The notes under the pieces are model-generated. The model was not told where the DNA came from, ran no database searches, and was given only the letters and a program-made list of their open reading frames with translations. A stretch of 64,000 nt of DNA from an uncultured Lachnospiraceae bacterium (GTDB lineage: Bacteria; Bacillota; Clostridia; Lachnospirales; Lachnospiraceae). The translations under genes and the position numbers were made by a program. The stretch lies in assembly GCA_947626745.1 (NCBI GenBank), contig CANQTF010000002.1:124001-188000 (forward strand), written 5' to 3'. Numbering within the stretch: position 1 is the first letter of the stretch; each line of letters starts with the position of its first letter. Below, piece by piece: positions 46,743-51,290 of this stretch.

Positions 46743-48533
46743 ATGAGTGAAGAGATTTTGAGCGCCATAACAGGCGAAGTGTACGGCGTCTGGTTTCTGA
46801 TCGGCGCCGCGCTGGTGTTCTGGATGCAGGCGGGCTTCGCTATGGTGGAGACAGGTTTTACCAGAGCGAAGAATGCGGGTAATATCCTGATGAAAAACCT
46901 GATGGACTTCTGCATCGGTACGGTGGTCTTTATCCTGATCGGGTTTGGCCTGTTCTTGGGAGAGGATTTGGTCGGCTTTATCGGTAAGCCGGGATTCGAC
47001 ATTTTTACCGACTATGCAGCGTTCGACTGGTCGAACTTCGTATTTAACTTAGTGTTCTGTGCGACGACCGCGACGATCGTATCCGGCGCGATGGCCGAGA
47101 GAACGAAATTCTTATCCTACTGTGTTTATTCAGCCGTGATTTCGGCTGTGATCTATCCGATCGAGGCACACTGGACATGGGGCGGCGGCTGGCTTGCACA
47201 GATGGGCTTCCACGATTTCGCCGGTTCCAACTGTATCCATATGGTAGGCGGTATCAGCGCCCTGATCGGCGCGGCGATGCTTGGGCCTCGTATCGGCAAG
47301 TTCGTGAAAGACAAATCCGGCAAGATCACGAAGGTGAATGCCTTTCCGGGACACAACCTTCCGATCGGCTGCCTCGGCGTATTTATCCTGTGGCTCGGCT
47401 GGTACGGCTTCAACGGCGCGGCTGCCACATCGGTCGAAGAGCTTGGCTCTATCTTCGTGACGACGACGATCGCTCCGGCGGTTGCGACGGTAGTATGTAT
47501 GGTATTCACATGGGTGAAATACGGCAAGCCCGATGTCTCCATGTGCCTGAACGCATCTCTGGCAGGTCTGGTGGCGATCACCGCGCCCTGTGATGTGTGC
47601 GACGCGTTCGGTGCGATCGTCATCGGTGCGGTTGCCGGTGTACTGGTGGTATTCGGCGTATGGCTTCTCGATTATAAGCTGCGCATCGACGATCCCGTGG
47701 GCGCGGTTGCGGTACACTGCCTGAACGGTATCTGGGGCACTATCGCAGTCGGTCTGTTTGCCACGGATACGGCGCCCGCATTTGCGAGAGGCTACGGCGA
47801 CGGCGTGAACTTTGGCGCAAACCAGATCGCGGCAGAAGGCTTGTTCTACGGCGGCGGCTTCAAACAACTCGGTCTGCAGCTTCTGGGCATGGGCGCGACG
47901 ATCCTGTGGACGGCGGTCACGATCACGATCACTTTCCTTGTGATCAAGGCGATCTTCGGACTGCGCGCTTCCGAGGAGGAGGAGATCATCGGTCTGGACG
48001 CTACAGAGCACGGCCTTGCTTCCGCATACTCGGGCTTCAGCATTATGGACGTGTCCAACACGATGTCTATGGACGTCAACGAGAATACGAGTCTCGGCGT
48101 AGAGGATTACGAGAAGGCATCGGAAGTGCAGAAGAATGCGGCCGTCAAAGTGGCGCAGGTTCCTGTGCCCTCTGCAACGGGTATGTATAAGGTAAGCATT
48201 ATTGCGAAGCTGTCCAGATACGATCATTTGAGAAAAGCGATGAACGATCTGGGCGTAACGGGCATGACCGTAACGCAGGTTATGGGCTGCGGCATACAGA
48301 AGGGCGCGGGCGAGATGTACCGCGGCGTCGAGATGGACGCGACGCTGCTGCCTAAGGTCAAGGTCGAGGTCGTTGTCAGCAAGATCCCGGTAGCGGACGT
48401 GATCGAGGCAGCCAAGAAGGCGCTCTATACCGGCCATATCGGAGACGGCAAGATCTTTGTCTACAATGTTGACAAGGTCGTTAAGGTCCGCACGGGCGAA
48501 GAGGACTTCGCCGCATTGCAGGACGTTGAGTAA
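46743..48533 (+). CDS. amt: Ammonium channel (Amt) with a fused C-terminal P-II domain
   Basis: 596 residues. Residues 1 to about 415 are an Amt channel with 11 predicted helices: WMQAGFAMVETGFTRAKNAG, the twin-His region in HWTWGGGW and VHCLNGIWGTIA, and CVAT-like intracellular loops. A linker (about 415-480) leads to a complete P-II (GlnB/GlnK) domain, 481-596, which aligns without gaps to E. coli GlnB. In it, Tyr51 (uridylylation site) is Met531 and Arg38 is Ile, while Gln39, the GKIGDGKIF-like GHIGDGKIF and RTGEED are kept. P-II normally plugs Amt as a separate protein, so fusion makes a built-in gate. It is driven by the promoter at 46575 through a leader terminator. Confidence 0.94.
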   Translation: MSEEILSAITGEVYGVWFLIGAALVFWMQAGFAMVETGFTRAKNAGNILMKNLMDFCIGTVVFILIGFGLFLGEDLVGFIGKPGFDIFTDYAAFDWSNFVFNLVFCATTATIVSGAMAERTKFLSYCVYSAVISAVIYPIEAHWTWGGGWLAQMGFHDFAGSNCIHMVGGISALIGAAMLGPRIGKFVKDKSGKITKVNAFPGHNLPIGCLGVFILWLGWYGFNGAAATSVEELGSIFVTTTIAPAVATVVCMVFTWVKYGKPDVSMCLNASLAGLVAITAPCDVCDAFGAIVIGAVAGVLVVFGVWLLDYKLRIDDPVGAVAVHCLNGIWGTIAVGLFATDTAPAFARGYGDGVNFGANQIAAEGLFYGGGFKQLGLQLLGMGATILWTAVTITITFLVIKAIFGLRASEEEEIIGLDATEHGLASAYSGFSIMDVSNTMSMDVNENTSLGVEDYEKASEVQKNAAVKVAQVPVPSATGMYKVSIIAKLSRYDHLRKAMNDLGVTGMTVTQVMGCGIQKGAGEMYRGVEMDATLLPKVKVEVVVSKIPVADVIEAAKKALYTGHIGDGKIFVYNVDKVVKVRTGEEDFAALQDVE

Positions 48534-48564
48534 GCGTATACCTATATCCCTTAGTTTGTATATA

Positions 48565-48610
48565 TAAAACGGGCTCCCGGTGCTTCCACCGCCGGGAGCT
48601 CGTTTTATTT
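48565..48610 (+). terminator. Intrinsic terminator of amt
   Basis: AAAACGGGCTCCCGG pairs with CCGGGAGCTCGTTTT, one G-T pair included, followed by ATTT. It is a strong G+C stem 32 bases after the stop. Confidence 0.88.
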
Positions 48611-48671
48611 ACGCGGGCACTGAACCAAGCGGATAAGTCTGCCTGTCGATCTGGCAAATGCCGTGATGACG

Positions 48672-48818
48672 ATTCCTCATGTTTTTGCTATCAAAGATTG
48701 ATGATTCCCTCATGTTTTGTTGCTTTAAGCAAATAATTCGCTCATATTTTTGCGGTTATAGCCTGACAATTCGCTCATGTTTTTGCAATCACTGCCACGT
48801 AATTCCCTCATTTTTTTG
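48672..48818. repeat. Array of five phased direct repeats (32-33 bp period)
   Basis: Units start at 48672, 48704, 48736, 48769 and 48802 (steps 32, 32, 33, 33). Each begins with a conserved 17-18 base core close to ATTCSCTCATGTTTTTGC and is followed by 15-16 variable bases. The variable parts of units 1 and 2 contain small dyads (ATCAA/TTGAT and TTGCT/AGCAA). The array ends just before the -35 box of the ATPase promoter. It does not have the repeat length of a CRISPR array and no cas gene is present. Confidence 0.85.
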
Positions 48819-48826
48819 TAAAAGCA

Positions 48827-48855
48827 TTGTATTTCTGCGGGAAATTGCATATACT
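48827..48855 (+). promoter_or_regulatory. Promoter of the AAA/DUF4143 ATPase gene
   Basis: TTGTAT (48827-48832), 17 bases, TATACT (48850-48855), about 30 bases before the ATG and immediately downstream of the repeat array. Confidence 0.65.
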
Positions 48856-50252: not shown

Positions 50253-50281
50253 TTGACAACCGGAAAAGTCGGGCATATAAT
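50253..50281 (+). promoter_or_regulatory. Promoter of cysK
   Basis: Perfect TTGACA (50253-50258), 17 bases, perfect TATAAT (50276-50281). Confidence 0.88.
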
Positions 50282-50304
50282 CAGCAATATAATAAAACAT
50301 ATAA

Positions 50305-50351: not shown

Positions 50352-51290
50352 ATGAGCAAGATCAAAGAGAGCGCACTGGAACTGATCGGCGGGACGCCGA
50401 TCCTGAAACTGAACGGCTACACTAAGAAGGCGGGCGTGACGAATGCCACGATCCTTGCGAAGCTGGAGTACCTGAATCCGGCCGGATCCGTGAAGGACCG
50501 TATCGCGCTGGCGATGATCGAAGATGCGGAGAAGAAGGGACTTCTGAAAGAGGGCGCGACGATCATCGAGCCCACGAGCGGCAACACCGGCATCGGTCTT
50601 GCGGCGGTGGCGGCGGCAAAGGGATACAGGGCGATCCTGACCCTGCCCGACACGATGAGCGTGGAGAGAAGGAATCTGTTGAAGGCGTACGGCGCGGAGC
50701 TGGTGCTCACCGAGGGCGCAAAGGGAATGAAAGGCGCGATCGCCAAGGCGGAAGAGCTGAAGAATGAGATCGAAGGCTCCGTGATTCTGGGCCAGTTTGT
50801 GAATCCCGCGAATCCCGCGGTACACAAGGCGACGACAGGGCCGGAGATCTGGGACCAGACGGACGGCAAGGTAGATATCTTTGTGGCCGGTGTGGGTACG
50901 GGCGGCACGATCACGGGCGTGGGCGAGTACCTGAAAGAGAAGAATCCGAATGTGAAAGTCGTTGCGGTGGAGCCGGCGACCAGTCCCGTGCTCTCGAAGG
51001 GTACGCCCGGGGCGCACAAGATTCAGGGTATCGGCGCGGGATTTGTGCCCGATGTGCTGAACACGAAGATATACGATGAGATCATTCCGATCGAGAATGA
51101 AGATGCGTTTGCGGAAGGAAAAGCCTTTGCGGTGAGCGAGGGTATCCTTGTGGGCATCTCCTCGGGCGCTGCGTTGAAGGCGGCGACGATCCTCGCAAAC
51201 AGGCCGGAGAACAAGGACAAGACCATTGTGGCGCTGCTGCCTGATTCCGGCGACAGATATCTGTCCACACCGCTGTTTGGCGGCAACTAA
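50352..51290 (+). CDS. cysK: Cysteine synthase A (O-acetylserine sulfhydrylase)
   Basis: 312 residues. The PLP lysine is in [14 protein letters not shown], the substrate loop is [12 protein letters not shown], and the phosphate-binding glycines are [17 protein letters not shown]. The C-terminal segment [12 protein letters not shown] is typical of CysK. It makes cysteine from O-acetylserine and sulfide in the cytosol. GAAAGGCGGAGG precedes the ATG. It has a consensus promoter with a dyad downstream. Its stop overlaps the stop of the convergent AEC transporter gene. Confidence 0.96.

Follow-up and report, generated by a model that had tools for sequence, protein, structure and literature searches.

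Operators of toxin-antitoxin systems are autoregulated, each being private to its gene and placed at the gene's own promoter. Iterons and plasmid partition centromeres are phased direct repeats that are bound side by side. Judging from the available passages of its paper, the closest described regulator is RptR of a phage-defence island (PMC12255303). Like the array described here, its site in those passages is made up of several direct repeats within the promoter of a defence locus; they overlap the −10 site and are occupied by a repressor that acts on its own promoter, as is proposed here. The RptR site differs in comprising three 9 bp repeats with a 6 bp palindrome and in being served by a dedicated small repressor. 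The available passages of two further papers (PMC12988326, PMC13356809) describe PDC-S01 as an ATPase with a PD-(D/E)XK-type domain, as in the protein of our locus; there it has candidate status, and no regulatory array is mentioned. Among defence systems of prokaryotes, candidates included, it ranks fourth in frequency, with 9986 copies detected in archaea and 29494 in bacteria, and most candidates of this kind still await anti-phage validation (PMC12988326, same passages). The literature, searched with subscription papers and preprints outside the scope, gave no account of constant-pitch, gene-private arrays in this family and no proven function for PDC-S01, in line with an earlier sequence-only reading of the locus. 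According to the part of the source available, the DUF4143 gene TT_P0211 of Thermus thermophilus is up 6.6-fold with plasmid, only if Argonaute is present (PMC4406477). The pTT27 DUF4143 gene L286, whose identity with TT_P0211 is unconfirmed, has no such array, so that the rise does no more than hint at inducible members.

The window analysed here is a 64,000-nucleotide stretch of an uncultured Lachnospiraceae genome. The sequence-only reading had noted five direct copies of a core in front of a DUF4143 ATPase gene, and all five are present in the same direction, spanning 48671–48819 and close to ATTCSCTCATNTTTTTGY (Table 1). As had also been claimed, the array ends just before the −35 box at 48827, the last core stopping 8 bp short of TTGTAT; the ATPase gene begins 66 bp past that core. 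Measured on the common CTCAT (48676, 48709, 48741, 48774 and 48807), the steps are 33, 32, 33 and 33 bp, so that the proposed 32–33 bp pitch stood but the individual values of 32, 32, 33 and 33 bp did not, copy 1 being one core base short. With up to three mismatches, ATTCNCTCATGTTTTTGC has five matches in the window, compared with a mean of 0.20 and a maximum of 2 in 100 dinucleotide shuffles, none of which reached five, and the view that the array is not due to chance was upheld. The array is absent from the Tandem Repeats Finder output, not being a head-to-tail tandem repeat, as expected because the stretches between the cores are unlike.

Table 1. Features of the array locus (window positions)
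Feature	Position	Strand	Details
Inverted repeat / terminator-like element of upstream ammonium transporter gene	48561..48611	+	divides transporter from array
Array unit 1	48671..48688	+	core 1 base short; read from sequence, pattern match
Array unit 2	48704..48721	+	sequence, pattern match
Array unit 3	48736..48753	+	sequence, pattern match
Array unit 4	48769..48786	+	exact consensus; sequence, pattern match
Array unit 5	48802..48819	+	8 bp 5′ of −35-like hexamer; sequence, pattern match
Putative promoter	48827..48855	+	−35-like TTGTAT (48827–48832), 17 bp, −10-like TATACT (48850–48855); by eye; sub-threshold in promoter tool; same in two relatives
ATPase gene, 450 aa	48885..50237	+	AAA_14 (residues 20–154) and DUF4143 (227–388); profile matches, conserved residues

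The promoter tool gave nothing above threshold at the window array, and both hexamers of the putative promoter are unchanged in the two nearest aligned relatives. Adjacent to the array are the ATPase gene and genes for an ammonium transporter and a PLP enzyme. The transporter (46743–48533) is fused at its C-terminus to a P-II regulatory domain, and a strong-looking TTGACA/TATAAT pair is seen by eye at 50254–50282, 5′ of the PLP-enzyme gene at 50352. The sole sub-threshold Rfam match, FsrA at 48530–48601 (16.2 bits where the gathering score is 80, E 0.65), was dismissed as chance. In the whole of the window's own genome the core pattern occurs at 14 places, 11 forward and 3 reverse, compared with 1 and 2 for a reversed-pattern control. 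Five of the 14 are the window array and the other nine are isolated single sites, for two of which (L005 and L006) the surrounding DNA was examined. Within this genome the core is thus arranged as an array at the window locus only; random occurrence across the genome would have told against the original observation, and the outcome favours it.

The window protein passes the curated cut-offs of both AAA_14 (PF13173, 86.0 bits, cut-off 27) and DUF4143 (PF13635, 121.5 bits, cut-off 28.1), and matches seven PADLOC models of PDC-S01, with a best E of 1.2e-158. A role in phage defence is taken from this PADLOC label only, which makes the protein a candidate. It has Walker A and B motifs plus PD-(D/E)XK-type residues E345, E370, D372, E385 and K387. 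Among 96 divergent array-bearing homologues, the Walker residues G27, K33, D95 and E96 are kept in all 96 and G32 in 95; for the nuclease-type residues the counts are 96 (E345), 94 (E370), 90 (D372), 94 (E385) and 94 (K387). No DNA-binding domain was named in the window protein by Pfam (E up to 0.001) or NCBIfam (E up to 0.1), and sequence searches of the PDB gave no solved homologue. A winged helix likely sits between the AAA_14 and DUF4143 domains, the one hint being that residues 238–277 of a distant paralogue, L020, match the ArgR winged-helix region with E 6.9e-5, far under the curated cut-off. In a scan relating protein segments to motif letters, all partial correlations stayed within about 0.13, and the segment that would read the motif was not located.

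A scan of genome contigs gave homologues of which the best 80 are 70–97% identical to the window ATPase. The same array was read upstream in Lachnospiraceae and in records labelled Oscillospiraceae, Erysipelotrichaceae, Veillonellaceae and Bifidobacterium, frequently with an A-run where the window has a T-run. By motif-free autocorrelation of the 200 bp upstream, 58 of 79 of these 80 loci showed lag 32 and 25 showed lag 33 (L091 has no upstream sequence), and lags 31–34 did not appear at four or more loci in the downstream and far-upstream controls. An alignment, A1, holds the window and 61 of the 80 loci; those omitted include L093, which contains a stop, and L032, L067 and L078, which were excluded by choice.

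With the addition of homologues detected in relatives, 183 unique genes were divided into 89 close ones (at least 550 bits) and 89 divergent ones (60–550 bits, listed identities mostly 28–44%), and five under 60 bits were set aside. One of each set was dropped for having less than 180 bp upstream, leaving 88 close and 88 divergent upstream regions of 250 bp. A weight matrix for the close set, with consensus naAaAATTCgCTCATtTTTTTGta and 244 training units, found at least one unit upstream of 85 of the 88 close homologues, at least two upstream of 84 and at least three upstream of 49. The matrix was trained on the same 88 sequences that it scored; spacing and orientation were not part of the training. 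The units lie on the gene strand in 239 cases versus 2 on the opposite strand, and successive steps are 32 bp (94 times), 33 bp (49 times), 30 bp (once) and 34 bp (once), with nine longer gaps, six of which are 64–66 bp, i.e. one unit skipped. Elsewhere the matrix found 9 units in the 84 regions downstream, and 117,775 bp of gene sequence contained 36. The three close homologues without any matrix unit are L032, L078 and L117, of which the last (58% identical) has by eye its own 33 bp array with a different motif. The array is therefore conserved near homologous ATPase genes, with its phased spacing, and is not an artefact of one strain, since the motif stands in at least two units before 84 of the 88.

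In alignments of the window with L021 (97% protein identity) and the same-genus L109, units have been gained or lost, and the cores and promoter are kept while the stretches between cores drift. Same-genus genomes (G317:C123 and G333:C41) contain short, separate, high-identity ATPase pieces that look like decaying copies. Of 299 genomes in the family, three contain the exact two-core pattern (reversed control, 0), and in two of the three it adjoins the ATPase gene. The third genome, G007, has three cores at 32 bp between other genes (L101, G007:C4, about 1501–1575), and a search at E 0.001 gave no ATPase of the window type there, only distant DUF4143 proteins; we read this orphan array as a remnant of a lost ATPase gene.

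The pitch is also found where the letters differ, e.g. at L019 (a paralogue in the window's own genome), L141, L169, L192 and L193. Of the 88 divergent homologues, 22 show lag 32, 43 show lag 33 and 8 show lag 34, and any other lag from 20 to 62 was found in at most 5; 56 downstream regions gave lag 31 in 2 and lags 32–34 in none, and Markov shuffles averaged less than 2. When a 31–34 bp repeat was scored at 12 of 16 matches, with no motif supplied, it was present upstream of 76 close and 62 divergent homologues, out of 88 in each set, compared with 10 of the 252 ORFs in the neighbourhood. When 13 matches were required, these counts were 67, 57 and 3. The 252 control ORFs were mechanically called, are at least 200 aa long and come from the close loci only; the other lags and the shuffles are the internal control for the divergent set. 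Chains of at least three copies at 31–34 bp were present at 139 of 207 genes, against 19, 7, 6, 15 and 4 in five other lag ranges, and the steps within chains were 33 (191), 32 (180), 34 (18) and 31 bp (10).

Eighteen of the 61 plasmid records with a homologue were fetched, and 14 of the 18 have a 31–34 bp repeat. Those without are L241, L244, L246 and L255; L244 and L246 show lag 66. These last two loci are from plasmids of Bacteroidota, and in both an annotated HipA-family toxin and a helix-turn-helix gene are found close to the ATPase gene. In a phylum-wide sample (L290–L303 and L309–L311; fragments, weak matches and own-genome genes excluded), 8 of 17 genes passed a criterion fixed beforehand, and other lag ranges were positive in 3 of 85 tests, a rate clearly above background and well below that of the family. 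Examples from Thermus and Lentilactobacillus lack the pitch, and one from Moraxella is barely at threshold, with lag 34. The plasmid homologues with the pitch cover six phyla: Bacillota, Bacteroidota, Actinomycetota, Chlamydiota, Pseudomonadota and Fusobacteriota. The sequence-only reading had considered Lachnospiraceae and a single core; the range of the array is wider, reaching other phyla with letters that vary by gene. Among distant DUF4143 subfamilies (less than 50 bits to the window protein) only 1 of 14 genes was positive, namely L257, where lag 34 is twice a 17 bp repeat. Upstream of L282 a repeat recurs every 23 bp, and the upstream regions of L020, L284 and L285 look like inverted repeats. 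The pitch may be a subfamily trait within DUF4143 genes.

For the homologues on viral contigs (seven loci, L223 and L224 being near-identical), six upstream regions were read, and four of these contain a 31–34 bp repeat at the threshold of 12. The exact two-core pattern was also considered as a phage decoy array at nine viral-contig loci. Each has one pair and no third core in the stretches read, and the pattern was taken as chance. With tblastn (E up to 1), no ATPase was found in these nine loci or in L101.

The motif goes with the gene rather than with the genome. As proteins become less identical, motif similarity declines, from 0.673 at 80–95% through 0.513 at 70–80% and 0.415 at 60–70% to about 0.30–0.34 below. 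Paralogues in the same genome are only marginally more alike (0.337, 73 pairs, above 0.6 in 3% of pairs) than unrelated homologues (0.309, 12065 pairs), and lie below genes of 60–90% identity in other genomes (0.498, 3491 pairs). A shared regulator encoded beside the array was rejected, as no gene family recurs regularly there: none was found at more than 9 of 78 other loci, the most frequent being ABC transporter ATPases. The AAA_14-DUF4143 ATPase is therefore the only constant companion of the array, and its own binding there appears to be the best-fitting reading. Clear dyad symmetry was found in only 8% of unit consensuses and was rejected as a general rule for the units. On an Acinetobacter plasmid (L253) and a Vibrio plasmid (L252), the units step by 32 bp and are nearly palindromic over about 28 bp, which suggests two half-sites per unit.

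The position of the arrays bears on their role. In a lenient promoter scan of our own, 112 of 181 arrays overlap the stretch from −35 to −10, 57 lie wholly upstream and 12 have no clear promoter; 37 of the 181 also have a unit downstream of −10. At several loci with short promoters, e.g. L086 and L057, the last core by eye fills the spacer between the hexamers. The operator-type geometry proposed earlier is supported by these units on or beside the promoter, as placed by the lenient scan, and the repeated sites at the gene's own promoter are conserved with the ATPase gene. It is fairly probable that the array is a multi-site operator cooperatively bound by its ATPase, most likely for autorepression. 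Each core would hold one ATPase assembly, a dimer or larger, and a step of 32–33 bp, about three helix turns, would set neighbouring assemblies side by side on one face of the DNA for cooperative binding. The occupied operator would most likely exclude RNA polymerase, because the units abut or overlap the promoter, and a potentially dangerous ATPase-nuclease would be kept scarce until ATP turnover or the binding of foreign DNA pulled it off its own operator. The conserved Walker and nuclease-type residues of array-bearing homologues and the ArgR-like match of L020 also favour this reading. The homologues lacking the pitch in the phylum and plasmid samples, the G007 array without an ATPase, the lack of a named DNA-binding domain or solved homologue in the searches of the window protein, the rarity of clear dyad symmetry and the slightly raised similarity of paralogues sharing a genome count against it.

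Binding of the array by a host regulator encoded elsewhere, with the ATPase gene merely its target, is unlikely. Such a protein would fit with the absence of a named DNA-binding domain in the window protein and with the use of direct-repeat operators by many regulators, but the motifs are unlike among the paralogues of one genome, which disfavours one shared host regulator, yet are common to the homologue elsewhere. The restriction of the motif array to the window locus in its own genome, and the persistence of the pitch from Bacillota to Bacteroidota, Chlamydiota, Actinomycetota, Fusobacteriota and Pseudomonadota, also speak against it. If the ATPase binds its array, it could instead be an activator that aids RNA polymerase from upstream. 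The position of the units is that of a repressor, and we rank autorepression first with autoactivation as its rival: the latter agrees with the window, where all units are upstream of the −35-like hexamer, and with the 57 wholly upstream arrays, but is made improbable by the 112 that overlap the promoter and the 37 with a unit downstream of −10 in the lenient scan.

The array might also be mainly non-regulatory and serve the ATPase-nuclease as a place of loading, nucleation or self-marking, in the manner of a partition centromere or transposon end. Phased units of one orientation with gene-private letters do resemble centromere or end-binding arrays, and array and gene occur together in many genomic contexts and on plasmids. 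However, there is no matching 3′ array, with the 9 matrix units in 84 downstream regions and lags 31–34 at background there; the arrays are therefore not paired ends, mobile-element ends were rejected, and we hold a loading or marking site to be quite improbable. More speculatively, and with considerable doubt, AAA_14-DUF4143 proteins might form a large class of self-sensing ATPase-nucleases whose assembly unit gauges DNA by steps of three turns, and in which each paralogue has a private, orthogonal docking array. A phased filament on it would silence the gene and store inactive enzyme, to be released by foreign DNA or a phage product. The structure of the assembly would keep the pitch constant, and the letters would act as a self-label.

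As an operator for its own ATPase, the conserved gene-private array would be a first concrete handle on PDC-S01, supplying a DNA ligand, a testable regulatory hypothesis and a predicted stoichiometry of one assembly per 32–33 bp. It could also help to separate real PDC-S01 members and subfamilies, because distant DUF4143 groups have other upstream layouts. Compared with RptR, the window array has cores of 17–18 bp, steps of 32–33 bp and no separate regulator gene adjoining. Unlike toxin-antitoxin operators, it belongs to a single gene without a partner, has a three-turn pitch, and would have as its regulator an AAA ATPase with a nuclease-like domain. It differs from iterons and partition centromeres in being chromosomal, with no Rep or Par partner seen adjoining. 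The suggestion of an iteron set was not borne out, as no replication gene was seen beside the array, which accompanies a single ATPase gene, whether chromosomal or plasmid-borne. Operator arrays are already known; what is new here, within the literature as searched, is a constant pitch with gene-private letters across an ATPase family.
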